Assembly (NCBI GenBank): GCA_035529075.1
Contig: DATKXK010000010.1
Coordinates: 477,401-541,400 of the forward strand
DNA length: 64,000 nucleotides
Origin: Acidobacteriota bacterium
Lineage (GTDB): Bacteria > Zixibacteria > MSB-5A5 > GN15 > FEB-12
Direction of reading: 5' to 3'
The translations under genes were made by a program, and so were the position numbers. Below, in pieces: positions 2,571-50,839 of this stretch. The notes below the pieces were generated by a model. It saw only the letters and a list, made by a program, of their open reading frames with translations, did not search any database and was not told where the DNA came from. The first letter of the stretch is position 1; each line of letters opens with the position of its first letter.

Positions 2571-3185
2571 TCAACTGGTCAGCTTGAGAAAGTCGTTCAG
2601 CAGGAATTCCACTCGGCCTATGAACGTCGACATGCGGGACATGACGGTATATCCAAACGTCGTTCCGAAGAAGATCATCAGGAAGTAGGTGCCGATTCGC
2701 GCCGAAACGCCCAGCAGCCCGCGATGCTCGCGGCTAAAGTAGAAATAGGAAAGCGTGCTCAGCACACCGAGCAGCACGATCAGGCCGGAGAAATCAAACC
2801 AGCCGGATTCGCCCAGCAGCGGGACCACGGTGGCAGACATCTGCTTGAGTGTCCGTGCGTTCAGCATGGCGGGAATGGCCACGCCGGCGCCGGAGCCGAT
2901 CAGCACGGCCATGGGGATTCGCGACAACCAGGTGGCCCGGCGCACGAATCGCGTGAACATCAGGAAACCGAGCACCAGTGGCACGACGAGCGGCCATTCG
3001 CCCTGCGTGAGTAAGGGCTGAAAAAGCAGATCCATCAGGCTGTTCGTCCACGTGATCACGAGAAAGTAGCCGATCGACACGCCGATCAGGATGGATTCGG
3101 CCATCCTGTAGACGGGATTGTCACGGTACAGAAACGTGAATATGGCCAGGGTCAGGACCCCGGCGACGACCGTGCCGATCTCCAT
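2571..3185 (-). CDS. uncharacterised polytopic membrane protein, fourth gene of the DUF6754 cassette
   Basis: A 204-residue protein with about six hydrophobic segments and short loops. It has no signal peptide beyond the first helix, and I can see no catalytic motif. It is the last of four overlapping minus-strand genes: its ATG shares a base with the stop codon of the gene before it (TGATG). This tight coupling implies an equimolar product and probably a membrane complex with the other three proteins. I do not recognise a named family. It could be a channel or scaffold subunit, but that is only inference from topology. Confidence 0.85.
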   Translation of the reverse strand: MEIGTVVAGVLTLAIFTFLYRDNPVYRMAESILIGVSIGYFLVITWTNSLMDLLFQPLLTQGEWPLVVPLVLGFLMFTRFVRRATWLSRIPMAVLIGSGAGVAIPAMLNARTLKQMSATVVPLLGESGWFDFSGLIVLLGVLSTLSYFYFSREHRGLLGVSARIGTYFLMIFFGTTFGYTVMSRMSTFIGRVEFLLNDFLKLTS

Positions 3186-3994
3186 CAGGCCTCCCTTCTC
3201 TTTGACCGCAAGCGAAAGTATATGACGTTGCCGATGATTATGAGCAGGATCACGTAGACGTGGGCCGCCGTCTGCGCGAGCATCGCCCGCGTGCCGCTCC
3301 CGCCGATTTCAATGAGCCCCTCGTATTCGGCGGCTCCGCGCAGGCCGCCCACCATGGCGTACATCTGCCCCGAGGCCAGGTAGGGATCGTACGTCGTCAC
3401 CATGGCCGCCGTGACGAACGCCGACACGCGCACGCCGTAGCGTGCCCCGGCGTACTCTATCCAGTGTGTCGTCAGGGAACCGTCGGCAATCGAAACGACC
3501 CCGGCAACGTCATCATAATTCGAAATCCCCGAAAGGAGAGGCAGCGCGCCGTATTCATTGCCGCTGTAATCCTCCGGATATGTCTTGGATAAGGACTCGC
3601 CCATGGAGAGTATCGCGGCGATATACTGTGGCTTGAATCCCAGATGCACGTAATCGGTGCCGTATTTGAGTCCGTACTCGTCGGCTGTCTGAGACATAAG
3701 GCGATAGCCGATGCCGGTCCCCTCGGCCAGCAGCGAAACGCCGATCAGCCGGAGCCCCCTGGACATGGCGTGTCGAAGGAAAGCCTGCGCCAGCGGCGCT
3801 ATTTCGGGCAACGAGGATGCCTCGTGGTCGAACGACACCATCAGCACTGTGCCGGCCGGGAGTGAATCAAGATACCCGTACATGCGTTCGGTATCGGCGG
3901 AAGGCACGACGGCGGGCCTGATACCGAGCAGCATGGTTACGGTGACCACGGCGATCAATCCGAGGAACGCCCAGTGTCGGCCCTGGAGGCGCAT
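3185..3994 (-). CDS. uncharacterised membrane-anchored protein, third gene of the DUF6754 cassette
   Basis: A 269-residue protein with one hydrophobic segment near the N-terminus (about residues 8-28), a large polar domain of about 200 residues, and a second hydrophobic segment near the C-terminus followed by a basic tail (RLRSKRREA). The topology suggests an extracytoplasmic or cytoplasmic domain held by two anchors. The middle domain contains a predicted alternating strand/helix pattern (TVLMVSFDHEAS, LRLIGVSLL, DYVHLGF) of Rossmann-like appearance, without a nucleotide-binding motif. ATG 3994 overlaps the previous stop as TGATG; a GTG one codon upstream is an alternative. I cannot assign a function. 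Confidence 0.85.
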   Translation of the reverse strand: MRLQGRHWAFLGLIAVVTVTMLLGIRPAVVPSADTERMYGYLDSLPAGTVLMVSFDHEASSLPEIAPLAQAFLRHAMSRGLRLIGVSLLAEGTGIGYRLMSQTADEYGLKYGTDYVHLGFKPQYIAAILSMGESLSKTYPEDYSGNEYGALPLLSGISNYDDVAGVVSIADGSLTTHWIEYAGARYGVRVSAFVTAAMVTTYDPYLASGQMYAMVGGLRGAAEYEGLIEIGGSGTRAMLAQTAAHVYVILLIIIGNVIYFRLRSKRREA

Positions 3995-4617
3995 CACGAG
4001 TCACTCCCCAGCCAGGTCCGTTCCAGACCGAGCAGAACTCTGAGCGAGGTCGTCAGGGAGCCCAGGCCGATGCCGATAAGGATGGCCCGCCGGGCCGCCA
4101 TGGACGGAGCGTCGCGAACCCACTCGGCGACATCGGAGAACTCCGCGAAGAGGACGTCACCCAGGTCGGAGCGACTGATAAGCGTCAGCAGCGCGGAAAC
4201 GAGCAGGACGGTGGCCGGCACGGAGCGGGCGCGAAAGCCGCGCAGCGAAGCCGAAGCGACAAAGAAGGCCAGCAGCGCGAAGACGGTCGATTGCATGGGC
4301 ACCTGCACGTAGTCAAACACCCATATGAACGGGGAATCGCCCTTTATCCCCCACACCAGCGCGAGAAAAGGCATGCTGAACAATCCGACCAGGCTGGCTA
4401 TCCGGTATGGGCGGTCGCTTCCCCGTGCAATCGCCCCCAGGTTGAATCTGGCAAAACTCACCACTCCCACCAACAGGGCAAAAGCGAAAATGATCTGCCA
4501 GTATCCGCGCAGCACCGTTTCATTGATGGCACCGGCGATGGGATGCCCGGAGAAATACACGGCAAAGAGGGTGAATCCGAAAAGACCACAGACGATCTGC
4601 GGGAACCGGCGCCGCAT
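3994..4617 (-). CDS. uncharacterised polytopic membrane protein, second gene of the DUF6754 cassette
   Basis: A 207-residue protein that is mostly hydrophobic, with about six to seven predicted membrane helices and a positively charged start (MRRRFPQ). I chose ATG 4617 because it forms a TGATG overlap with the stop of the upstream gene, the same arrangement as the other two junctions in this cassette; a longer reading that starts at 4659 would overlap by 43 bp. No family is recognised. It contains no charged pairs or motifs typical of known transporters that I can see. Confidence 0.83.
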   Translation of the reverse strand: MRRRFPQIVCGLFGFTLFAVYFSGHPIAGAINETVLRGYWQIIFAFALLVGVVSFARFNLGAIARGSDRPYRIASLVGLFSMPFLALVWGIKGDSPFIWVFDYVQVPMQSTVFALLAFFVASASLRGFRARSVPATVLLVSALLTLISRSDLGDVLFAEFSDVAEWVRDAPSMAARRAILIGIGLGSLTTSLRVLLGLERTWLGSDS

Positions 4618-5426
4618 CAGAACCTCCACCAGCCCGAGGTCGGGTCTATGGTTGCCCACAAAATCGCGCCGACAAGAAATATCGCGATCAGGATTTTCAG
4701 GACGTCCTGCGCTCTTACCGAGGCCAGGATCGAGGCATCCTGTGAGAGGTAACCGGACGCCGCGAAAACCTCCTCGCCGATCAGCGTGTAGTCACAGGCC
4801 ACAATGAAGAAGGCCAGTTGAATGGTGGAGTCGGTGCCCGCGATCTGGATGGCCCCGACCGTGTTGCCGACCTCCGCAAGAATGAGCGATTCGGCCTCAA
4901 AGGTGCCCAGCAGGAAGATCGACGCGGGCTTCAGCCGGGTTATCATCCCCTCTACGGCCGCCGCGTAGCCGAACTGCGACGACGACACGTAGCAGATGTC
5001 GTCTTCGGAGAAGCGGTCACCCTGCCCTGCCCGGGCGTAGCTTTCCCGAACCACTTCCTGGGCGACGGCCATAATGACCGGGTCGTGCGTGGGGAAAACA
5101 AGGCGGCAGTCGTACTGCGCCGTCTTTTCCGCGATGTGACTGAGGATATTCAGAGACGCGATGGTGGTGGGTCGCTGAATGTCTCCCCCCCACCCGGGCG
5201 TGTACAGGACGGGGCGGGCCATCTCGGTGGCGCGCCCGACGGCCTCCTCGACCGCTTTCAGGCCGGCAATCTCCCGCATCTTGAATGGCCGCCCGGTTCG
5301 TGCACGGTGCATTGTGTAAAGCACAATTGCGATTGAGATGATTGCACAGATCAACACCGTTGTACGGCTGGTGTCAAACCACGCCCCGCCGCCGGCCAGG
5401 AGCAGGTAAAGACCAGGGAAAAACAT
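4617..5426 (-). CDS. DUF6754-like membrane protein, first gene of a four-gene cassette
   Basis: About 269 residues with two N-terminal membrane helices, a soluble domain of roughly 190 residues and one helix near the C-terminus. The soluble domain holds YTPGWGGDIQRPTTIASLN, then a strand/helix pattern (CRLVFPTHDP, SIFLLGTFEAES, AIQIAGTDS). This resembles proteins annotated DUF6754, a family without a known role; I recall that match and have not searched for it. ATG 5426 begins just before the first helix; a TTG at 5462 would add 12 residues, and neither has a clear ribosome-binding site. It leads the cassette and is divergent from the sugar-transport operon. Confidence 0.75.
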   Translation of the reverse strand: MFFPGLYLLLAGGGAWFDTSRTTVLICAIISIAIVLYTMHRARTGRPFKMREIAGLKAVEEAVGRATEMARPVLYTPGWGGDIQRPTTIASLNILSHIAEKTAQYDCRLVFPTHDPVIMAVAQEVVRESYARAGQGDRFSEDDICYVSSSQFGYAAAVEGMITRLKPASIFLLGTFEAESLILAEVGNTVGAIQIAGTDSTIQLAFFIVACDYTLIGEEVFAASGYLSQDASILASVRAQDVLKILIAIFLVGAILWATIDPTSGWWRF

Positions 5427-5477
5427 TGCTGCCAAACAGCGGCGCGGTTTTCGGGAAATCAACTAAAAGATTTCTTG

Positions 5478-5553: not shown

Positions 5554-6768
5554 ATGTATAGAATCGTTTTCGCTGCCGCCTTTCTGGTACTGCTCGCTTT
5601 CGATATGCCCGACTGCAAAACGACCCTTACCTGGTGGCAGTTCTGGACTGATCCCGACGTGAAGCCCGCCATAGACGCGATCGTGAGTGATTTCGAGAAG
5701 GCCAACCCCGATATCGAGGTCAAGCTGACCGACCTGACGTGGGCCAACGGGCATGAGAAGATCGTGATTGCCTTTTCCTCGGGGTCAGGACCGGACGTTG
5801 TGGAACTGGGCTCGGACTGGATCGCCCAGTTTGCACAGACCGGACACCTGTCCGACATTTCCGATCACGTCACCTCCGACAGCGCCGAATTCCAGGGCTG
5901 GGGGATGGCTACATACGATGGCAGGGTGTTTGCGCGGCCGTGGATCCTCGGCACGCGAGTTATGTTTATCAACCGGGACTTGCTTTCCTGGGGCGGCTTC
6001 AACAAAGATTTTGTGCCGTATGACTGGGAGAAGTTCAGATTCACCACCAGGCGAGTGCGCAAGCTCAGTCCCGATATCTATGGCTGGGGTTCGAACACGG
6101 CGGAAAAGCACCGCCTGTATAAGAAATTCCTGCCCTTCTTCTGGTCCAACGGGGCCAAGATCTTCACCGAGGACGGCGAGTATTGCATCGTGTCATCCGA
6201 CAAGGCGATCGAGGCGTTGACGTTCTACAAACTGTTGCATGACTCCTGCGGATACGTGGCCGACCAGCGGGGGATTGAGGATGCCTTCCTGGATGGAAAG
6301 ATCGGCTTCATTATCTCCGGAGACTGGCTGCTCAAAAGGATTGCGCTTGAGAATAGGGACATAGACTTCGCCGTGACCAACATTCCGGGACCGGCCTTCC
6401 CCGGCAAGTCGTTCCTGGGGGGAGAATTCCTCGCCATAAATGAAGCCTGTGAGAACAAAGAGGCCGCCCGGAAGTTAATTAACTTCGTTACTTCGCCGGA
6501 AAACCAGGTGCGGTTCTGCAAAGCCAACTACTCAGCCAACCCCTCCAGTCTCGAGGCCCAGGAGGATCCGTACTTCGCGGACAACGAGTACTTTCAGGCG
6601 TTTATCCGGCAGATACGTTCGGCCGTGCATCCCCCGGTCGACCCGGACTGGGTGTACATCGAGGACATCATTGAAGAGGCCGTGGAGGACGCCCTCTTCG
6701 GTTCCGGTCTGCCCGCGACGGCCCTGAGGGAAGCCCAGATAAAAATCGCAAAGCTGAAGAAGAAATGA
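5554..6768 (+). CDS. extracellular sugar-binding protein of an ABC importer (family 1)
   Basis: A 404-residue protein with a hydrophobic leader (about residues 1-20) and a family 1 solute-binding fold: TWWQFWTDPDVKPAID, DFEKANPDIEV, GSGPDVVELGSDW, and a C-terminal INFVTSPENQVRFCK region. It should capture a sugar, or a sugar-phosphate such as glycerol-3-phosphate, outside the inner membrane and hand it to the two permeases that follow. The cysteine at residue 21 is in MPDC, which is not a standard lipobox, so membrane anchoring is uncertain. GGAGGAG lies 9 bases before the ATG. The gene overlaps the next by 4 bp (ATGA). Confidence 0.92.
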   Translation: MYRIVFAAAFLVLLAFDMPDCKTTLTWWQFWTDPDVKPAIDAIVSDFEKANPDIEVKLTDLTWANGHEKIVIAFSSGSGPDVVELGSDWIAQFAQTGHLSDISDHVTSDSAEFQGWGMATYDGRVFARPWILGTRVMFINRDLLSWGGFNKDFVPYDWEKFRFTTRRVRKLSPDIYGWGSNTAEKHRLYKKFLPFFWSNGAKIFTEDGEYCIVSSDKAIEALTFYKLLHDSCGYVADQRGIEDAFLDGKIGFIISGDWLLKRIALENRDIDFAVTNIPGPAFPGKSFLGGEFLAINEACENKEAARKLINFVTSPENQVRFCKANYSANPSSLEAQEDPYFADNEYFQAFIRQIRSAVHPPVDPDWVYIEDIIEEAVEDALFGSGLPATALREAQIKIAKLKKK

Positions 6769-7631
6769 GCCCGAAGTCAAAGACGGCGCTGCTCCTGGCG
6801 TCCCCCTGGGTTCTCACCTTCCTGCTCTTCTGGCTCCTCCCTCTGGTATACTCGTTTGTCATCGGGTTCACCGACTACGAACTGCTGAAAGGCTCTCACT
6901 GGGTCGGGCTGGCCAATTACAGGGAGCTGTTCTCGGATGCGGAATTCATAGGCTCGATCAAGAACACCTTCATTTTCGTCCTGGGTACCATCCCTGTTAC
7001 GACCGTGCTGGCCTTGGGCATGGCGTTGCTGGTGAACCGTCAGTTCAAAGGGCGGGGCGTTTTCCGGGCCGCGTACTTCGTACCGTCAATAACCTCGATG
7101 GTGGTGGTGGCGCTCATCTTCATCAACCTGTACGCACGAGGCGGCTACGTGGCGATCCTGGCAAGAATGGTGGGGCTGGCGCCGCCGCCGCATGGTTTCC
7201 TCTATGACGGCAGGACGGCCTTGTACTCGATCATGGCCATGGACGTGTGGATGTCGGTCGGCTACTATATGCTGATCTTCCTTGCCGGCCTGAAGGCGAT
7301 TCCGGACGAGTTGTACGAGGCCGCCGAGATCAGCGGCGCCTCACGAGTCCGCCGGTTGTTTTCCATTACGCTGCCCCTGCTCAGGCCCGTGATGCTGTTT
7401 ATCCTGGTCATCAATTCCATCAAGTCGTTCCAGGTCTTTGTCGAGATATTCGTGATGACGAAGGGCAAATTCGACACCTCCACCGTGGTCTACTTCGTGT
7501 ATGAGACCGGTCTTGCCACGGCCTTCCGTCTGGGTTATGCCTCGGCGGCCGCTTACGTGCTGTTCGTGATAATCGCGGTGTTTTCACTGGTGTACTTTGC
7601 GCTCCTGCGCCGGAGGCGGATTGCATGGTGA
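6765..7631 (+). CDS. ABC sugar transporter permease, MalF/UgpA type
   Basis: A 288-residue inner-membrane protein with six predicted helices. The ATPase-docking EAA loop is visible as ELYEAAEISGASRVRRLFSITLP, matching the family pattern EAAxxDGAxxxxxFxxIxLP. It pairs with the downstream MalG-like permease to form the translocation pore. It overlaps the binding-protein gene by 4 bp and the next permease by 7 bp, so the three genes form one transcript. The likely substrate class is carbohydrate. Confidence 0.94.
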   Translation: MSPKSKTALLLASPWVLTFLLFWLLPLVYSFVIGFTDYELLKGSHWVGLANYRELFSDAEFIGSIKNTFIFVLGTIPVTTVLALGMALLVNRQFKGRGVFRAAYFVPSITSMVVVALIFINLYARGGYVAILARMVGLAPPPHGFLYDGRTALYSIMAMDVWMSVGYYMLIFLAGLKAIPDELYEAAEISGASRVRRLFSITLPLLRPVMLFILVINSIKSFQVFVEIFVMTKGKFDTSTVVYFVYETGLATAFRLGYASAAAYVLFVIIAVFSLVYFALLRRRRIAW

Positions 7632-8452
7632 GCCAAACCGGGAGATTCGGCGCCGTCATCAGGTACGGATTCCTGACCGGGTTGCTGGTCGTAATGGTCT
7701 TTCCCCTGGTCTGGATGTTCCGGGTGGCCCTGGCGGAACCCGGCAGCAGCATCGGCAGCGAGATTCTTGCAAGTTCAAGTATAACTTTAGATAACTTTAC
7801 GGACTTATTTGCCAGGGCTAACATCGGCCGACCACTGTTCAATTCGCTGTTTGTCGGTGTGACCGTGACGCTGGGCAACATCCTGTTCTGCTTCATGGTT
7901 GCATATTCGCTGGCCCGTTACCGGTTCCGGTCCGGGAAACTGCTTTTTGTGACAGTAGTTGTGGTGCTGATGATTCCCGCGCACATTACGATCATCCCGT
8001 TGTACGCCCTGTGCGTCAAAGCCGGGGTATACAACACGTACTGGGCTCTCATTCTCCCCTGGCTGGTCAACCCGATAGGCGTATTTCTCGTCAAGCAGTA
8101 TGTCGAATCGATCCCCCCGGCCATGGAGGAGGCTGCACGCATCGACGGCGCCGGTGAACTGCGCATTTTGTTCCAGGTCGTGATGCCCTTGTGCAAGCCG
8201 GCCCTGGCGGTGCTGGCCATTCAGGTCTTCTTTACTAACTGGAATTCGTTCCTGTTCCCCTACATTCTCACCCTGGACGAGGGTTTGCGCACCCTGCCGG
8301 TGGCCCTGGCTCTCTACCAGGGACACCAGGCGATTGACTGGCAGCACCTGATGGCCGGCTCGGCTGTTGCCGTGATTCCCGTCCTGGTCCTTTTTGTTTT
8401 CATGCAGCGCCAGATAGTGTCCGGCATCACGGCCGGGGCTGTAAAACAGTAG
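7625..8452 (+). CDS. ABC sugar transporter permease, MalG/UgpE type
   Basis: A 275-residue inner-membrane permease with about six helices and the EAA loop AMEEAARIDGAGELRILFQVVMP. It is the second half of the pore. No ATP-binding subunit follows: the next gene is an OmpA-like lipoprotein after a 106-bp gap. In many bacteria one shared MsmX/UgpC-type ATPase serves several such importers, so the missing subunit is probably encoded elsewhere. Confidence 0.94.
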   Translation: MVSQTGRFGAVIRYGFLTGLLVVMVFPLVWMFRVALAEPGSSIGSEILASSSITLDNFTDLFARANIGRPLFNSLFVGVTVTLGNILFCFMVAYSLARYRFRSGKLLFVTVVVVLMIPAHITIIPLYALCVKAGVYNTYWALILPWLVNPIGVFLVKQYVESIPPAMEEAARIDGAGELRILFQVVMPLCKPALAVLAIQVFFTNWNSFLFPYILTLDEGLRTLPVALALYQGHQAIDWQHLMAGSAVAVIPVLVLFVFMQRQIVSGITAGAVKQ

Positions 8453-16502: not shown

Positions 16503-16618
16503 CTATGATATCAGCAGCGGGGCATACTAGGCGCGGCAACTCGAACCTGACGGCGCAACTAATTGTAGGTTTGCTATCGTTTTGTGAAGAACTGAATTCA
16601 CAGGAGTCGCGATCTACC

Positions 16619-18070
16619 ATGAGCACCGAACAAGAATGCAGATTTACTCTCAAAGATAACACGCCCTGTGGGCAGACCGGCGGCGACGCGGCCAAAGGAA
16701 TGTGCAGGTTCCATCAATGGGTGCGGCCTGACAGACTGTGGGCGCGCGGAGATCTTAGCGCCATTAAGCAATATGTGACGAATTGCAAACAGGAGTTTGT
16801 CGACTTCGCAGGTATCCGTTTTGACGGTGTGGACTTCGCGGGTCTGTTGGGCACCGAAAAGCGACTCCTGTTTGAGGGTTCACAGTTTACCAAATGCACA
16901 TTCAAGGCTTGTGTATTCTACAATGCTTCGTTTATCGGCGAGTGTGTGTTCAAGGACACGGTTTTTCGTAAATGCGAATTCCGAGGCACTGAGTGTAGCT
17001 TCGAAGATTCTGTTTTCGACTCGGATGCGATCGTCTTTGATGAGTGCACGTTCATTCTGACGTCCAAGGACGAACTCGACCCTACTGCGGTGTCTTTTAA
17101 GGGTTGCGACGCAAGTATTGTTCACGGACTATTCAGGAACTGCTATGTGAAAGCTTATCGATTCGATGCGAACGGCTTACAGCTTATCGGGAAAGATGTA
17201 CATCCTAAACTAGCTTTATTCGTCACGGACGCGGGCCAGCGCCTCAAAACAGATATGCTGTGTTTGGATAGTGTTCACCAAGTTCTGTTAAGTGGACTTC
17301 AGTTTCGGGGTGTATTCACGTACAGGCAGCATCAAGAGTATGGTGATTTCGTGCCGAGGCTGGACTTAACTCAAATTGACTTCGACAAAATGCTGTCTGC
17401 GCATCTTTTTGACGCAAACTTGAAAAAGGCGTGGTTCAGGAATTCATCTATCGAGGCGGTGAAGTTTCATAACTGCCGCTGGCCTAAGAAAGGTGAATAC
17501 AAGTATCTGCCTGAAGATGGACTCAGCGAAAAGGCTCTCGTCAAGGATGACTCAGAGCTGCTGAGGCTTTACGTCCAACTGAAGAAGAATTTCGAAACTA
17601 ACGGCGATTTCATCGGTGCTGGCGACTGGCACTTTCGAGAGATGGAGGCAAGGCGACGGCTTAAGCTAGGGAACAGTAAAGGCCCGAAGCGCTTGCTGTA
17701 CAAGTGTCTTTCCCTTATATGCTGGTACAAGAGGCTCTCCAACTATGGGGAGAGCTATGCTCGCCCGTTGATATGGATTATTGCAGTGTGGTTTGTGTTT
17801 TCGTGGATATACCTATTCTCTGGCTTCGTTGAGTCGGGTGCGTTTGTCAACTTGGATGTTTTTCACGGGCACGTAGTGAGCGTCAGAACGTTCCTCGATC
17901 ATCTCCTCAAGGCCATGCTATTCAGCTTCCTGGCTATGACCCTTCAAGTCGGCAGAGGTGCAAACCTGCAGGGAAGCTGGTTGCAGTTTTGGCACAGCCT
18001 CCAGTTACTGCTTACCGCCGTGCTGGTGCCTTTAATGCTGTTAGCTGTGCGCAGAAAGTTCCGCCGCTAA
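16619..18070 (+). CDS. pentapeptide-repeat protein with C-terminal membrane helices
   Basis: About 483 residues. The N-terminus is rich in Cys/His (CRFTLKDNTPCGQTGGDAAKGMCRFH), which could bind a metal. Residues of about 55-160 and 250-310 follow a pentapeptide pattern A(D/N)LxF-like with aromatic centres (FEGSQFTKCTFKACVFYNAS), which folds as a right-handed beta-helix. After a helical linker, the last 110 residues hold two or three membrane helices, an arrangement seen in pentapeptide proteins with an ion-channel-like tail. Base composition is visibly A+T-richer than its neighbours and it sits 116 bp after tRNA-Leu, which suggests acquisition by transfer. ATG 16619 starts the conserved part. 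The function is unknown. Confidence 0.85.
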   Translation: MSTEQECRFTLKDNTPCGQTGGDAAKGMCRFHQWVRPDRLWARGDLSAIKQYVTNCKQEFVDFAGIRFDGVDFAGLLGTEKRLLFEGSQFTKCTFKACVFYNASFIGECVFKDTVFRKCEFRGTECSFEDSVFDSDAIVFDECTFILTSKDELDPTAVSFKGCDASIVHGLFRNCYVKAYRFDANGLQLIGKDVHPKLALFVTDAGQRLKTDMLCLDSVHQVLLSGLQFRGVFTYRQHQEYGDFVPRLDLTQIDFDKMLSAHLFDANLKKAWFRNSSIEAVKFHNCRWPKKGEYKYLPEDGLSEKALVKDDSELLRLYVQLKKNFETNGDFIGAGDWHFREMEARRRLKLGNSKGPKRLLYKCLSLICWYKRLSNYGESYARPLIWIIAVWFVFSWIYLFSGFVESGAFVNLDVFHGHVVSVRTFLDHLLKAMLFSFLAMTLQVGRGANLQGSWLQFWHSLQLLLTAVLVPLMLLAVRRKFRR

Positions 18071-19584: not shown

Positions 19585-21576
19585 GTGAACGTACTTTCTG
19601 ACGCTGCCGCAAACTATGAGCGAACCGGGCAACTGGTCGGATATGTTCCCCGTAAGCTGGCCGCACCGGAGGTGTACGCAGACCTCGGGTTCAAGTCCGG
19701 CCTGGAAATCCATCAGCAACTGAAGACTGAAAAGAAGCTGTTCTGCCGCTGCCCGGCCGGGATTTATCAGAAGGACGGCGAATTCGACGCGGAAGTGATT
19801 CGGCACATGCGGCCGACGTTAAGCGAGATGGGCGAATACGACGGCACCGCCCTCATGGAGCGCAAGACCCGGAAAAACATCATCTACCGGATCAAGTATG
19901 AGACCGCCTGCACGTATGAGATCGACGACACGCCGCCATTCCCGCTGAACCGCGAGGCGCTCGGAATCGCCATCAAAATCGCCCTCATGCTGAACCTGAA
20001 CATCGTGGGCGAACTGCACATCACCCGTAAGCAGTATCTCGACGGCAGCATTCCGACGGGATTTCAGCGGACGGCCATTATCGGTATCGAGGGCGACATA
20101 GCGCTGAGCAACGGCCCGGTCAGGATCATCCAGCTGAGCGTCGAAGAAGACGCCTGCCGTGAGGTCTCGGACGTCGGCCACTGGCGCGTATATACTACTG
20201 ACCGTCTGGGCATGCCGCTGATCGAGACGGTCACGTATCCTGACATGAAGACGCCTGACGAGGTCGCCGACGCCGCCCACTACCTCAGGTTCCTGACCCG
20301 GAGCACGGGAAACGTCCGCACCGGCATAGGTGCGGCGCGCCAGGACGTCAATGTCAGCATTGACGGCGGCACGCGGGTGGAGATAAAGGGGGTGGCCCAT
20401 ATACGCTCGATTCCTGAGCTGGTGCACAATGAAGCCTTCCGGCAAAAGGCCCTGCTGCTGATAAGGGATGCGCTCAGGGAGCGCGTCACTGATCCTTCCG
20501 CATGGAAGGCGTCGCATATAGACCTGAACTTCAACAATGCGCTCTCGCAGTATGCGCCCGTTCGGGAGGCCAAGAAGCAGGGGCAACGGCTGGTGGCGGT
20601 CAACCTGCCCCGGTTTGGCGGCATCCTTTCGTTCTTTACCCAGCCGGGGCAGTCGTTCGCCGACGAGTTGAGCGGGCGTCTCAAGGTCATCGCCTGCCTG
20701 GAAAGGCCCAACATGTTGCAATCGGAGCAGACCGGCGAGCCTTTGCCGGCCCTGCCGCCGCAGGCGCTGTCGCAGATACGAGAGAAACTCGGCGCCCGTG
20801 ATGGCGATGCCCAGGTTGTCGTCTGGGGCGCATCCGATGACGTTGACACGGCCATAGAGACTATCGAGGAACGTTGCCGCATGGCGTACGAGGGCGTTCC
20901 GAACGAAACGCGCCAGGCTCTGGCAGACGGCACGACTCTATTCGAACGCGTGCTGCCCGGCCCCGACCGGATGTATCCGGATACCGACTCCGCCCCGATC
21001 CCCGTGGAACAGTCACATATCGACGAGCAGAAACGGGACCTGCCCACGTCCGTGCGCAATCGTACCCTGCAGCTCGAGGAATGGGGCGTTCCGCGGGACA
21101 CGCACCATTACATTCTGAAGCGCAATCTGGCCGGCCTGATATCCAGGATAGTTGAAGACCTTGGCTACGAGGCGAAATTCGCGGGCACCGTCATCGGACA
21201 CACGCTGAGGCATCTGGAGGGCACCGTCAGCCCGGCTTCGCCGTTTGATTATGAGCGGGTGTACGAGGTGTTTGCCTTCGTCAGCGCCAGGCAGCTCGAG
21301 CGGCGGATTATCCAGGAAATGCTGCCCGTTGCCTATGAGCACCCCAACATGGTGCTTGACTCGGCTCTGACGACTATCCAGTATAAACCGATGTCGTGGC
21401 AGGAAATTATATCTTTCGCGCCGTCACTTGACGAGAAGTTTCGTGAAATCTGCAGGTCGCGCGATCCGGGCGCCGGGGCGCGCTGGATCATGGGGAACCT
21501 GCGCAGGCTCGCGATCGGCAACGTCCCCATGAGTGACCTGAGAACCTACGTCGAGAACCTGACCGCTCATGTCTGA
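19585..21576 (+). CDS. gatE: Glu-tRNA(Gln) amidotransferase subunit E (archaeal type)
   Basis: A 663-residue protein of the GatB/GatE family. It has the GatB-like opening LGFKSGLEIHQQL, the cysteine-bearing FCRCP, the kinase-like active-site region around QLSVEEDACREVSD, and VEIKGVAHIRSIPELV. The length and the domain inserted after residue 290 identify GatE, not GatB; a YqeY-like tail occupies the last 130 residues. With GatD it converts Glu-tRNA(Gln) to Gln-tRNA(Gln) using ammonia passed from GatD. The pair is characteristic of Archaea. The start is GTG 19585. The gene overlaps gatD by 8 bp. Confidence 0.95.
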   Translation: MNVLSDAAANYERTGQLVGYVPRKLAAPEVYADLGFKSGLEIHQQLKTEKKLFCRCPAGIYQKDGEFDAEVIRHMRPTLSEMGEYDGTALMERKTRKNIIYRIKYETACTYEIDDTPPFPLNREALGIAIKIALMLNLNIVGELHITRKQYLDGSIPTGFQRTAIIGIEGDIALSNGPVRIIQLSVEEDACREVSDVGHWRVYTTDRLGMPLIETVTYPDMKTPDEVADAAHYLRFLTRSTGNVRTGIGAARQDVNVSIDGGTRVEIKGVAHIRSIPELVHNEAFRQKALLLIRDALRERVTDPSAWKASHIDLNFNNALSQYAPVREAKKQGQRLVAVNLPRFGGILSFFTQPGQSFADELSGRLKVIACLERPNMLQSEQTGEPLPALPPQALSQIREKLGARDGDAQVVVWGASDDVDTAIETIEERCRMAYEGVPNETRQALADGTTLFERVLPGPDRMYPDTDSAPIPVEQSHIDEQKRDLPTSVRNRTLQLEEWGVPRDTHHYILKRNLAGLISRIVEDLGYEAKFAGTVIGHTLRHLEGTVSPASPFDYERVYEVFAFVSARQLERRIIQEMLPVAYEHPNMVLDSALTTIQYKPMSWQEIISFAPSLDEKFREICRSRDPGAGARWIMGNLRRLAIGNVPMSDLRTYVENLTAHV

Positions 21577-22951
21577 TCTGTTCAAAGGATACAAGGGCGA
21601 CGGCCTGGCCGTGCTGAAGAAGTTCAAGGTGCGGGTCTGGAGCGAAACGCGGGTCAAGACGACGCGCGGCGATTTCTCCGGCATAATCCTGCCCCGGTCG
21701 GAGAACGACGACGACAGGCATATCGTTCTGAAGCTGGCCACCGGCTACAATGTCGGCATCGCCACTGACACAATCATAGACATGCATGAAAGCGGTTACA
21801 AGGAAGCTCACTACAAGATACCGGAAAAAGAGTTCCCCGTATCCGAAGATAAACCGGGCATCAAGCTGCTCGGCACCGGAGGGACCATTGCCTCCCGGCT
21901 CGACTACCGCACCGGCGCGGTGATACCGGCCTTTTCCCCGGGCGAACTGTACGGTGCCGTCCCCGAACTGGCCGACATCTGCAACCTGACGACCGAGAAG
22001 CTGTTCGCCGTGTTCAGTGAAAACATGGGCCCGGACCAGTACACGAAGCTGGCCGTGGCTATCGGCGAGGAGATCAGGAAAGGTATTGACGGTATCGTCA
22101 TCGGTCACGGTACCGATACCATGCACCACACGGCGTCGGCTCTGGCCTTCATGGTACAGAACCCACCGGTTCCCGTTGTGCTCGTCGGGTCGCAGCGATC
22201 GTCCGACCGGCCTTCATCCGACGCCGCGCTCAACCTGATCCATGCCACCAAAGCTGCCGCCGAGTCGGACATCGCGGAGGTTATGGTCTGCATGTTCGGT
22301 CCCACCTCGGACAAGTACGGGCTTCTACACAAAGGAACCCGGGTGCGTAAAATGCACTCCTCCTATCGGTCAACGTTCCGTACGGTGGGCGATATCCCGC
22401 TGGCCATGGTGGACCGCGAGACAATCACGCCGCTGCGGCAGGATTACAACCGCCGCCGCAAGGACCGGCAGGTCACGATCCTGCCGTACTTCGAAGAACG
22501 GGTGGCGCTGGTCTACTACTACCCCAACATGCACCGCGACATCATCGATTCCCTGGTGGACAACGGCTACAAAGGGATCGTGATCGCCGGGACCGGGCTG
22601 GGGCACGTCAACAAGCCGGTCTACCCCGCCATCGAGCGAGCCACGAAGGAGGGCGTGGCCATCTACATGACGGTGCAGACGCTGTGGGGCTATGTGCACA
22701 TGTTCGTCTATGACACCGGCCGTGATCTCATGGCCAGGGGCATAATCCCGACCGAGAACATGCTTCCCGAGGTGGCCTACGTCAAGCTGGGCTGGGCGCT
22801 CGGCCAAACCTCCGACCTGGCCAGGGTGAAAGAGATTATGCTTACCCCCCTGTGCGGCGAGATTACGGAACGAGAGCCGTACAACGGCTACCTCATTTTT
22901 CAGGGCGGCATCCCTGAAGTCGAAGAGTTCCTGCACAAGATCCACAAGTAA
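21569..22951 (+). CDS. gatD: Glu-tRNA(Gln) amidotransferase subunit D (archaeal type)
   Basis: A 460-residue glutaminase subunit. A GatD-specific beta-barrel N-domain (about 1-90) precedes an L-asparaginase-like domain. The catalytic residues expected for the family are visible: Thr106 in GTGGTIAS, Thr182 and Asp183 in GHGTDTMHHTA, and a lysine near 228 (HATKAA). It releases ammonia from Gln or Asn and channels it to GatE. A plain cytoplasmic asparaginase is excluded by the N-terminal domain and the overlap with gatE. All active-site residues are intact, so the complex should work. Confidence 0.96.
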   Translation: MSDLFKGYKGDGLAVLKKFKVRVWSETRVKTTRGDFSGIILPRSENDDDRHIVLKLATGYNVGIATDTIIDMHESGYKEAHYKIPEKEFPVSEDKPGIKLLGTGGTIASRLDYRTGAVIPAFSPGELYGAVPELADICNLTTEKLFAVFSENMGPDQYTKLAVAIGEEIRKGIDGIVIGHGTDTMHHTASALAFMVQNPPVPVVLVGSQRSSDRPSSDAALNLIHATKAAAESDIAEVMVCMFGPTSDKYGLLHKGTRVRKMHSSYRSTFRTVGDIPLAMVDRETITPLRQDYNRRRKDRQVTILPYFEERVALVYYYPNMHRDIIDSLVDNGYKGIVIAGTGLGHVNKPVYPAIERATKEGVAIYMTVQTLWGYVHMFVYDTGRDLMARGIIPTENMLPEVAYVKLGWALGQTSDLARVKEIMLTPLCGEITEREPYNGYLIFQGGIPEVEEFLHKIHK

Positions 22952-25008: not shown

Positions 25009-28000
25009 ATGCACTACAACTTCGAACCGGTCCTGTTCCGACGCCGACGACGCTTGGTAACCCAGCCACGTGCGAAGAGAGCAAGGACAGGTATATCTGC
25101 CGCTCGGTGCGGATCTGCATGCCTGGTCTGGCTGGCCGCTGCATTTGCCGTGACAGCCTTAAATGCAGGGGCGGAAAATCTGACCCTGAGCCTTCAGGCC
25201 GGAGGCTACGAGATAGTCGACCAGCCGGACGGACAGCAGGTTGTCACGATGGAAGGCTTCAGCTACCTCTCGGTACCCGGCAAGCCGCTCCTTCCGGCCA
25301 GGAGCTATATGATTGCAGTCCCGCCCGGCGCGAGCATTCTTTCGGTCTCTGTTGCCGGTGACGGCGAGTTTGAAATTGACGGCCGCTACCGGATCATGCC
25401 GGCACCACCGTTTCTGCCGACTGACGACCGACAGGCGATGGTTGACGAGTGCCGCCGGGAGTGGCAGGAAAGCTACAATACAGTCTATGAATCCGACCAG
25501 ACGTATCCTGAGAAGCCCGGGGAATTTCTCGGCACGGGCGGGTTGAGGAAGTACTCTTTCGTCAGGGTGTCTTACTTTCCGTTCGCCTATAACCCGCGTT
25601 CGGGCAAGCTCGTATTCACACCCTCCCTGACGGTCTCCATTGACTACGACCTGTCGCCGTCCGGTCTGGCGCGCGCAGACGCCATGATGGCCGATACCAG
25701 GGCCGACGAACGGGCCTCCGACCTTCTGGTGAATTACTCTCAGGCACGCCAGTGGTACCCGCCCGCCGTTGCCCGGCAGTCACCCGACACCATCGCGGCG
25801 GATTACGTGATTGTCACGACGGACGCCCTGAGCGGCGCCGTGACTGCCCTGGTCAACTGGAAAGAGTCCATTGGCTTCAGCGTCGAGGTCGTCACCACTG
25901 CCTGGATCAGCAGCGGCTACAGCGGCGCCGATCTGCCCGAGAGGATCAGAAACTTCCTTAGTACTACCTATCTCGATTGGGGTATTGAGTACGTGCTGAT
26001 TGTCGGGGACATCGACGTTATCCCGATGCGGCACTGCTTTCCTGATCCCACCAACCACCAGCCGAATTCGGATTACTGCCCGCCGACGGACTATTACTAC
26101 GCGGACCTGACCGGCGACTGGGACAGCGACGGAGACGGCTTCCACGGTGAATACGGTCAGGACAACGTTGACTTTGTACCCGAAGTCATCGTCGGGCGAA
26201 TCCCGTTCAGCGACTCGGCCACGGTCGCCTCGATATGTCAGAAGCTGGTCGTCTTTGAAAGCGATACCGCGTCCTGGAAAAGCAACGCCCTGCTGCTGGG
26301 CGCCATGAGCAACTATGCCGACGAAGATGAATCCGGCTGGGATCGGACCGACGGCGCCGCGCTCATGGAGGACATGATTACTGACATACTCGGCGGCTGG
26401 ACGTACACGACGATGTATGAAAAGGCCGGTCTGAATCCGAGCACGTACACCTGTGACCTGCCGCTGAGCTATGAAAACGTAATAAGCGACTGGTCCGCCG
26501 GCGACTACGGCGTCGTCAACTGGTGGGCCCACGGAAGCAACACCGGTGCCTGGAGGAAGTGGTGGGCCTTTGACGACGGCGACGGCATCCCCGAGACGCA
26601 GTCCCCTGACGAGATGGACTGGGACGCGTTTATATACAGCACGGTCGTGAACAATCTTGATGACAACCACCCCTCGATTGTCTTTTCCTGCTCGTGCAAC
26701 AACGGCTGGCCGGAGTATGACAATCTGGGACGGCAACTGCTGCGCCACGGCTCCTCCGGCATCGTTGTCTCTACCAGGGTCTCGTGGTACGCGATCGGCT
26801 GGGACCAGTGGGGCGGCGGCAACGCCTCCATAGACTACGACTTCTTCCGCTACATGATCGTCAACGGCGAGAAAGTCGGTAACGCCCTCTTCGACGCAAA
26901 ACTCTACTACCTTAACCACTATTTCTGGTGGGGCTGGCAGTCGCAGCAGAACATGTTTGACTTCTGTCTCTATGGTGACCCATCGCTCGTCCGCGAGGGT
27001 ACGGCATCTGTCCTCTGCGTGGACAGCGACGGCGACGGCTACGGCGATCCCGGTTACCCGGAGAACCAGTGCCCGACCGACAATTGCCCCTATGCATACA
27101 ACGCGGACCAGGCTGACGGCGACGGTGACGGAGCCGGGGACGCGTGCGACAACTGCCTGGGGGTCGTCAATCCGAGCCAGGCCGATACGGACGGCGACAA
27201 TATCGGAAACGCATGCGACAACTGCCCCGACGAAGCTAACACCGGCCAGGCTGACACCGACGGCGATCTGGTCGGCGATGCGTGTGACAACTGCCCGGCG
27301 CTGCCGAATCCAGACCAGACTGACTCGGATGGTGACAGAATCGGCAACCCGTGCGATGACTGCCCGGACACGCCCGATCCGTTCCAGATCGACTCCGACG
27401 GTGACGACGCCGGTGATGCGTGCGACAACTGCCTTAGCACACCCAATCCCGACCAGCTTGATTCGGACGGTGACGGGCACGGCGACCTCTGTGACAACTG
27501 TCCCGGGGAACCCAATACCGATCAGGCCGATGACGACGGCGATGGAATCGGCGATGCCTGTGACAACTGTCCCGGTGAACCCAATGCCGATCAGGCCGAC
27601 GGTGACGGCGATGGAGTCGGCGACGCCTGTGACAACTGTCCCGGTGAACCCAATCCCGATCAGGCCGATGGCGACGGCGACGGACTGGGCAATCCCTGTG
27701 ACAATTGCGCCGACCTGGCCAATCTTGAGCAAACGGACTCGGACGGAGACACCATCGGCGATGCCTGCGACGAGTGTACGGATACCGACGGTGACGGCTT
27801 CGGTGACCCCGGCTATGCCGCCAATACCTGCCCGACGGACAATTGTCCGGACGACTACAATCCCGGCCAGGCCGATGCGGACAATGACGGCACCGGCGAC
27901 GAGTGCTGCTGCATGGATCTCACCGGCAACGTGGACTGTGATTCAGATGATATCATAGACATCGGCGATCTTACAAAGCTGATTGATTTCCTGTTTATCT

Positions 28001-28134
28001 CGCATAGCCCGCTGTGCTGTCACCGGGAAGCAAACGCCGACGGCGACTCCGAACATATTGTCGACATTGGCGATCTGACCAGCCTCATTCAATATCTCTT
28101 TATCAGCGGAGCGGATCCCGCCGTATGCCCGTAG
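25009..28134 (+). CDS. gingipain-type C25 cysteine peptidase with TSP3 repeats and a dockerin-like end
   Basis: A 1041-residue secreted protein. An arginine-rich start leads to a hydrophobic segment (about 34-55), then a propeptide-like region (56-255) and a C25 catalytic domain. The family's catalytic pair is visible as His508 in WWAHGSNTG and the cysteines 561/563 in FSCSCNNG. Ten exact 23-residue thrombospondin type 3 repeats (DNCPxxxNPDQxDxDGDxxGDAC) plus one divergent unit should bind calcium. The C-terminus has two dockerin-like repeats, [16 protein letters not shown] and [16 protein letters not shown]. It should act outside the cell, possibly docked onto a cohesin-bearing surface. Confidence 0.93.
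27079..27768 (+). repeat. ten tandem 69-bp repeats encoding TSP type 3 units
   Basis: The array is exactly 10 x 69 bp, in frame with the peptidase gene, each unit beginning at a GAC codon for DNC or DDC. Units 7-9 are the most alike at the DNA level, which points to recent duplication or gene conversion. Confidence 0.9.
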
Positions 28135-49960: not shown

Positions 49961-50068
49961 ACAAGTGAAATGCCGGTTGCCGCTTAAGCGGTGACCTGAA
50001 CAGACATTACGCGAGTGTCCCGGATACCCGCCGACAGGTACCAGCGAAGTTCCTGCGCTCAATGGTAT

Positions 50069-50839
50069 ATGAAAAGTCCCTATCGGTTTCTGTCAGTTGT
50101 CTGCGCGCTTCTGTTTCTGGAGCCGCCGGCCGTCCTTGGTCGGGTTATTATTGACGATCCCGGCTTCTCTGATACCGTGTTTGTCGACTCGGTCAGCGTC
50201 ACCATACCCGAATCGGCCGTGCTGACCGTCAGTTTCTGTAACGACCAACCGCTGGCCGCTGTCGAGGTCACCCTGGCCTACGACTCGCCGGACCTCGTAA
50301 TAGACTCGTTCTCATTCACCGGCAGCAAGATTGAGTACATCCAGTTGAAAGGCTGGACTACCTTCGACGACACTACCCTGACGATATTCGCATTCCAGTC
50401 CGACGAAGGCCTGATTTCGTTCGGCGAAGGACTCCTGGGTAACCTGTACCTGTCCTGTCCGGAGGGCACGGAACCGCAGGTGGTCGCTTTCGATACCACG
50501 ACGGTTATCATCGACCTGATCGTACATGCAACCTTCTTCACCAACGCTGACGTGCTCTCCTTCGTCCCGCAATTCGAGAAGGGCTTTGTCAACCTGCATA
50601 CCACCTGCTGTGAGGGGAACACCGGAAACGTGGATGCATCCCCCGACGGTGTGGTCGATATCGGTGACCTGACCGACCTGATCGACTACCTGTTCATCAG
50701 CAAAACGGAACCGTCCTGCCTCGACGAGGCCAACGTGGACGGTTCGGGCGACGGCGTCGTCGACATCGGGGATGTGACCTACCTGATTGTGTATCTTTTC
50801 GTGTCCGCCGAGACGTCCCCCCTGCAACCCTGCCCTTAG
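50069..50839 (+). CDS. secreted protein with a cohesin-like domain and a C-terminal dockerin
   Basis: About 256 residues. A signal peptide (FLSVVCALLFLEPPAVLG) is followed by a beta-sandwich of about 150 residues with the cohesin-like pattern AAVEVTLAYDSPDLVIDSF and FGEGLLGNLYLSC. The C-terminus has two dockerin repeats, DGVVDIGDLTDLIDYLFIS and DGVVDIGDVTYLIVYLFVS, each with the calcium-loop aspartates. A cohesin-dockerin pair on one chain could self-associate or link partner proteins. The cohesin call rests on pattern only. ATG 50069 places the signal peptide correctly. Confidence 0.82.
   Translation: MKSPYRFLSVVCALLFLEPPAVLGRVIIDDPGFSDTVFVDSVSVTIPESAVLTVSFCNDQPLAAVEVTLAYDSPDLVIDSFSFTGSKIEYIQLKGWTTFDDTTLTIFAFQSDEGLISFGEGLLGNLYLSCPEGTEPQVVAFDTTTVIIDLIVHATFFTNADVLSFVPQFEKGFVNLHTTCCEGNTGNVDASPDGVVDIGDLTDLIDYLFISKTEPSCLDEANVDGSGDGVVDIGDVTYLIVYLFVSAETSPLQPCP

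Follow-up and report, generated by a model that had tools for sequence, protein, structure and literature searches.

A DUF6754-containing four-gene membrane cassette kept as a set across little-studied bacterial phyla, and its possible ATPase partner

Four short genes that follow one another on the minus strand, overlap at every joint and encode only membrane proteins raise a simple question: do they build one device and, if so, what does it do? They were found in a 64,000-nucleotide stretch of DNA, hereafter the window, and we call them A to D in order of transcription. Gene A (5462-4617; start either at TTG 5462 or at ATG 5426) encodes 281 amino acids and belongs to DUF6754, as the original prediction had named it (PF20539, E 6.7e-99; 330.6 bits compared with a cut-off of 27, covering profile positions 4-248 of 257). 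Gene B (4617-3994, ATG at 4617) encodes a polytopic protein of 207 amino acids with about six transmembrane helices and its N terminus inside. Gene C (3994-3185, 269 amino acids) carries an extracytoplasmic six-stranded Rossmann-like alpha/beta domain between two transmembrane helices, and gene D (3185-2571, 204 amino acids) is again polytopic. Charge-based topology and the AlphaFold model of C confirm the expected pair of polytopic proteins together with a third whose domain sits between two anchors. Genes B, C and D have no curated family: none gave a significant Pfam or NCBIfam match, and 32 B, 32 D and 91 C homologues yielded sporadic weak matches only. For known transporter families in particular, there was no Pfam match to B or D of the window, and the 64 B and D homologues again gave only sporadic weak ones. 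These profile searches hit no transporter or enzyme family.

Consecutive genes meet in the pentanucleotide TGATG, in which stop and start codon have one base in common, at positions 4619-4615 (A/B), 3996-3992 (B/C) and 3187-3183 (C/D) of the minus strand, exactly as first described. It had further been argued that such perfect coupling means equal protein amounts, which is not borne out. Overlaps of 1 or 4 bases are found between other same-strand neighbours of the window too, and a TGATG overlap as such is unexceptional there. Near orthologues of the window cassette are mostly coupled; in the wider family the overlaps are not conserved, with ATG overlaps at all three joints in only 2 of 118 cassettes. 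The conserved trait of the cassette is its gene set and order.

Conservation of order is indeed wide. A scan of public genomes returned at least 576 relatives, from which we kept 79 loci labelled as more than a dozen phyla (some of these labels come from metagenome bins and may be wrong). Every complete cassette found, that of the window included, has the order A-B-C-D; conserved order across phyla had been named beforehand as one sign of a new complex. DUF6754 is present in 132 of 132 Zixibacteria genomes examined, commonly in about five copies, and in 0 of 14 control genomes; viral contigs gave no match. The genome that contains the window has five DUF6754 copies, which correspond to five complete cassettes with five A and five C genes: three in tandem (L021, 6865-18283), one in L022 and one in the window.

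The trees show that cassettes evolve as units. In tests against multi-cassette loci, the nearest cassette according to A was also the nearest according to B in 59 of 62 cases, according to C in 59 of 62 and according to D in 57 of 62. In a four-gene tree, tandem positions 1, 2 and 3 each fall into a clade of their own, interleaved with other phyla; the paralogue classes therefore appear to be older than the phyla, or else have passed from one phylum to another. On this tree the window type sits on a long branch and is related to class 3. Outward parts vary between copies: those of A are lacking in the window, FnIII-like N-terminal regions elsewhere (by reading) and a PQQ/BamB-like propeller in L138; L169 has a long insert in B. 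We read the window copy as a derived module devoid of an outward domain. An A protein of 795 amino acids in L064 was discounted as an assembly artefact, because its gene spans a run of N.

In many phyla, cassettes are also accompanied by recurrent partner genes. A MutL-family protein is encoded near the cassette in 31 loci. These linked proteins belong to the MutL/GlmL group of ASKHA proteins (PF13941, E 6e-128) and have both phosphate and adenosine motifs; ATDCGSTTTKA, D-GGATTD and GSGG are invariant in all eight sequences compared. The partner in L086 scores 229 bits with the NCBIfam GlmL equivalog model, whose cut-off is 475, and falls below the Or-4 cut-off as well. The usual order of the recurring set is M (two transmembrane helices), S (about 130 amino acids), MutL (about 615), K (about 375, a barrel-sandwich/KOW-like protein) and then A-B-C-D; neither K nor S reached the cut-off of any Pfam family. 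All eight genes stand together in L098 and L116 (labelled Fermentibacteria), L079 (labelled Zixibacteria) and L164-L166 (labelled as a Planctomycete phylum). In L145 the set M-S-MutL-K stands with two cassettes, and in L127 and L128 a fusion of MutL and K lies upstream of A. Fused MutL-K paralogues of 931-982 amino acids also exist with no A-D genes nearby (L142 6965-9808, L143 5563-8358 and L144 8010-10958).

K was detected in 123 of 132 Zixibacteria genomes, nearly always as one full copy, and 13 of 14 genomes have a single MutL. Cassettes, of which a genome may have as many as five or six, outnumber this one MutL and one K, a disproportion that fits one shared energising unit. The cassette of the window has no linkage to MutL; its genome does encode MutL and K, both in L021. 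Among 246 genomes from the phylum to which G132 belongs (source of locus L135, labelled Planctomycetaceae), 62 carry A and 59 carry K; the two occur together in 56, A alone in 6, K alone in 3 and neither in 181, counts that ignore kinship. The K of one of the three K-only genomes is a fragment of 28 residues. Of 16 genomes in the phylum of G133, 12 have A and 13 have K, with both in 12. Further, A is located away from B and C in five genomes (L168-L172), each of which nevertheless encodes a single C and a single MutL; the set is therefore retained even where its genes are unlinked. That A-B-C-D and the partners constitute one system is well supported.

The original prediction would have been abandoned if the genes proved scattered and independent in relatives. 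In those five genomes the genes are unlinked, but the parts are still present. One could argue that the cassette is nothing but a conserved operon, i.e. four membrane proteins of one pathway and not of one complex, and unlinked genes as well as the general commonness of overlapping genes in operons agree with this. Against it speak an order strictly kept from phylum to phylum, whole cassettes that have duplicated and diverged as units, and the small size of proteins that belong to no catalytic family, and we consider it quite improbable. Of the proposed single membrane complex, the functional part stands: conserved order across phyla, matching cassette phylogenies and co-occurrence of unlinked genes strongly support one functional unit, of an undescribed kind. 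The physical part we infer: A, B, C and D very probably form a complex.

What could such a complex do? Protein A starts with a signal-like segment and a transmembrane helix (residues ~31-55), continues with a six-stranded alpha/beta domain and ends in a second transmembrane helix (~243-272). The AlphaFold models of A (pLDDT 89) and C (pLDDT 96) are confident and each show a six-stranded alpha/beta domain between transmembrane helices, and the positive-inside distribution of charges in 119 homologues places the domain of A in the cytosol, that of C outside the membrane and the segments of B in alternation from an inner N terminus. Secondary-structure elements of A and C follow the same order, though with no detectable sequence homology; profile comparison gave none between A and C or between B and D, and sequence homology within either pair was rejected on this ground. 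More than twenty polar residues of A are invariant or nearly so, among them R77, T79, E80, Q163, R176, E191, Q206, T210, D224, E230, E231, D253 and K256. B has a conserved cytosolic loop (S122/R126/R129), C invariant E64, D142, Q210, E225, H245 and N256, and D a motif SFLY(K/R)DNPxY(K/R)xAE near its N terminus. Many conserved polar residues of A map to predicted strand ends, as judged from secondary structure and alignment, not from coordinates. Strand ends are the usual place of ligand binding in alpha/beta folds of this type, and both domains, A and C, have clusters of invariant residues there that may represent ligand pockets. A sequence search of the PDB found no relative, and in the PDB fold search the models of A and C had no hit at E <= 1e-3, the best ones being generic Rossmann-type folds, so these putative pockets rest on conservation and topology.

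So many invariant polar residues might also mark an active site. The Rossmann-like domain of A (and of C) would then be catalytic, and MutL a reactivation chaperone by analogy with the role proposed for GlmL-type proteins of B12-dependent mutases. MutL is a relative of GlmL, and A has a weak fold similarity to a molybdenum-cofactor carrier, not reaching E <= 0.001. Nevertheless, in the loci read we noticed neither a B12-dependent mutase nor a protein that binds B12 in the vicinity, and the missing fold match weighs on this proposal too; there is little chance, in our opinion, that the module is a membrane-bound enzyme.

Other neighbours point towards the cell envelope. ExbB/ExbD genes occur in 18 of 81 loci, compared with about 2% expected from an ExbB density of about one per megabase (an estimate that ignores kinship). 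The loci concerned are labelled Zixibacteria, WOR-3/Stahlbacteria, Fermentibacteria and a Planctomycete phylum, and their arrangements differ; at most loci this linkage is absent. In L146 the MutL and K genes are followed by apparent TolQ, TolR, TolA, TolB and Pal, the last three identified by eye. We regard these ExbB/ExbD and Tol neighbours as a suggestive link to the envelope. In five loci (L084, L093, L094, L096 and L125) gene D is followed by genes for a DUF4388 protein (E 7.7e-12 in L094), two roadblock-like proteins and ExbB-ExbD-ExbD.

Several other genes of the window can be described briefly. A sugar ABC importer operon (binding protein and two permeases, 5554-8452, plus strand) is divergent from the cassette and has no ATPase gene; it retains this position next to the cassette in L026, a locus from another family. 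A 521-residue protein (16505-18070, plus strand) with transmembrane helices near its C terminus weakly matches HalA of the Hailong anti-phage system, at 29 bits and so below the cut-off of 250. Adjacent genes for the archaeal-type Glu-tRNA(Gln) amidotransferase subunits GatE and GatD (19585-22951, plus strand) stand in this bacterial genome and exceed the NCBIfam equivalog cut-offs (481 versus 456 and 513 versus 310 bits, respectively). Dockerin-like repeats (DIGDLTxLIDYLFIS) end the proteins encoded at 25009-28134 and 50015-50839 (plus strand), the former of which has calcium-binding-type repeats in addition; all these repeats were read by eye.

We propose, with confidence that stops just short of even, that A-B-C-D belongs, as a membrane module, to a larger system of the cell envelope comprising M, S, the MutL/GlmL-family ASKHA protein, K and one or more such modules, in which use of ATP inside drives an action outside. 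The MutL protein, cycling through ATP and accompanied by K, would most likely dock on A at its cytosolic domain, which is strongly conserved. Polytopic B and D could relay the resulting change to the extracytoplasmic domain of C, and ATP used inside would thereby be converted into binding, movement or assembly of something at the outer face of the inner membrane. A single MutL-K unit might be common to several modules, whose specificity the outward parts of A would set. There are two links in this chain of unequal strength. Firstly, MutL-K probably acts on the A-B-C-D module. Secondly, transmembrane coupling driven by ATP is a tentative assumption. If both apply, one ASKHA ATPase of the actin/Hsp70 type would power several paralogous modules of four subunits, each with an alpha/beta domain on either face of the membrane; that this amounts to a new class of ATP-driven envelope machine, widespread among diderm phyla that are little studied, we put forward more tentatively still. 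Against the proposal stand the annotation of MutL relatives elsewhere as accessory proteins of B12-dependent mutases and not as parts of membrane complexes, the unlinked position of the window cassette, the majority of loci devoid of ExbB/ExbD, the six genomes with A in which K was undetected, and the failure of the fold search for A and C.

The same parts can be arranged differently. If nothing is moved, the module could be a transmembrane sensor or regulator, in which a ligand at C or at the outward domain of A alters cytosolic A, a change that MutL, K or S would then detect. A conserved alpha/beta domain on each face of the membrane, variable FnIII-like or propeller domains outside and the DUF4388 and roadblock-like genes after D would suit such a role. 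Two polytopic subunits are, however, more than a sensor usually needs, and the cluster has no conserved kinase, response regulator or transcription factor; we find this reading unlikely. Similarly unlikely is an importer akin to group II ECF transporters, where C would bind the substrate on the outside, B and D make up its route and A couple to the shared MutL-K ATPase, with one substrate for each cassette. The ratio of MutL and K to cassettes, the cluster of conserved residues in the extracytoplasmic domain of C and the position of the window cassette, and likewise of that in L026, next to a sugar ABC importer whose operon has no ATPase gene speak in its favour. On the other hand, B and D match no transporter family, the system has no ABC ATPase, the paralogue classes are ancient and conserved, and presence in every Zixibacteria genome suggests a housekeeping role instead of a nutrient-specific one.

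Taken together, A-B-C-D is an undescribed membrane module that is retained as a set in many bacterial phyla about which little is known, commonly with multiple copies in one genome beside one shared ATP-binding protein. In a literature search that lay mostly outside subscription journals we found no paper naming DUF6754, and what we found on GlmL, KamB/KamC and Zixibacteria membrane complexes does not describe the system; an earlier description may exist. Every Zixibacteria genome examined has the system, as do many other phyla, and as long as no function is described for it, part of the basic biology of these organisms is missing. The ATPase partner that its copies probably share offers a concrete handle. 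In the Planctomycete-labelled phylum, single-copy versions are encoded by complete single-contig genomes and would suit genetics.

How does the system compare with those already known? The Pfam entry DUF6754 covers A alone and gives no function. K is weakly similar to the barrel-sandwich proteins RnfC and NqrA (E 0.03-0.07 in L127, below cut-off), and no other Rnf or Nqr subunits were noticed. ExbB-ExbD and TolQ-TolR, whose genes lie beside the system in four phyla, provide an envelope setting; they are of families different from A-D and their linkage is not universal. The MutL/GlmL family includes the linked partner as a member with intact nucleotide motifs, although the partner lies below the GlmL and Or-4 cut-offs and is linked to a membrane module and not to a B12 mutase; A-D themselves are unrelated to this family. 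Group II ECF transporters combine one energising unit with several membrane modules in a genome, and the A-B-C-D system would resemble them in this arrangement. The family search found no ECF ATPases, T or S components here, and in place of an ECF ATPase the system has one of the ASKHA type.
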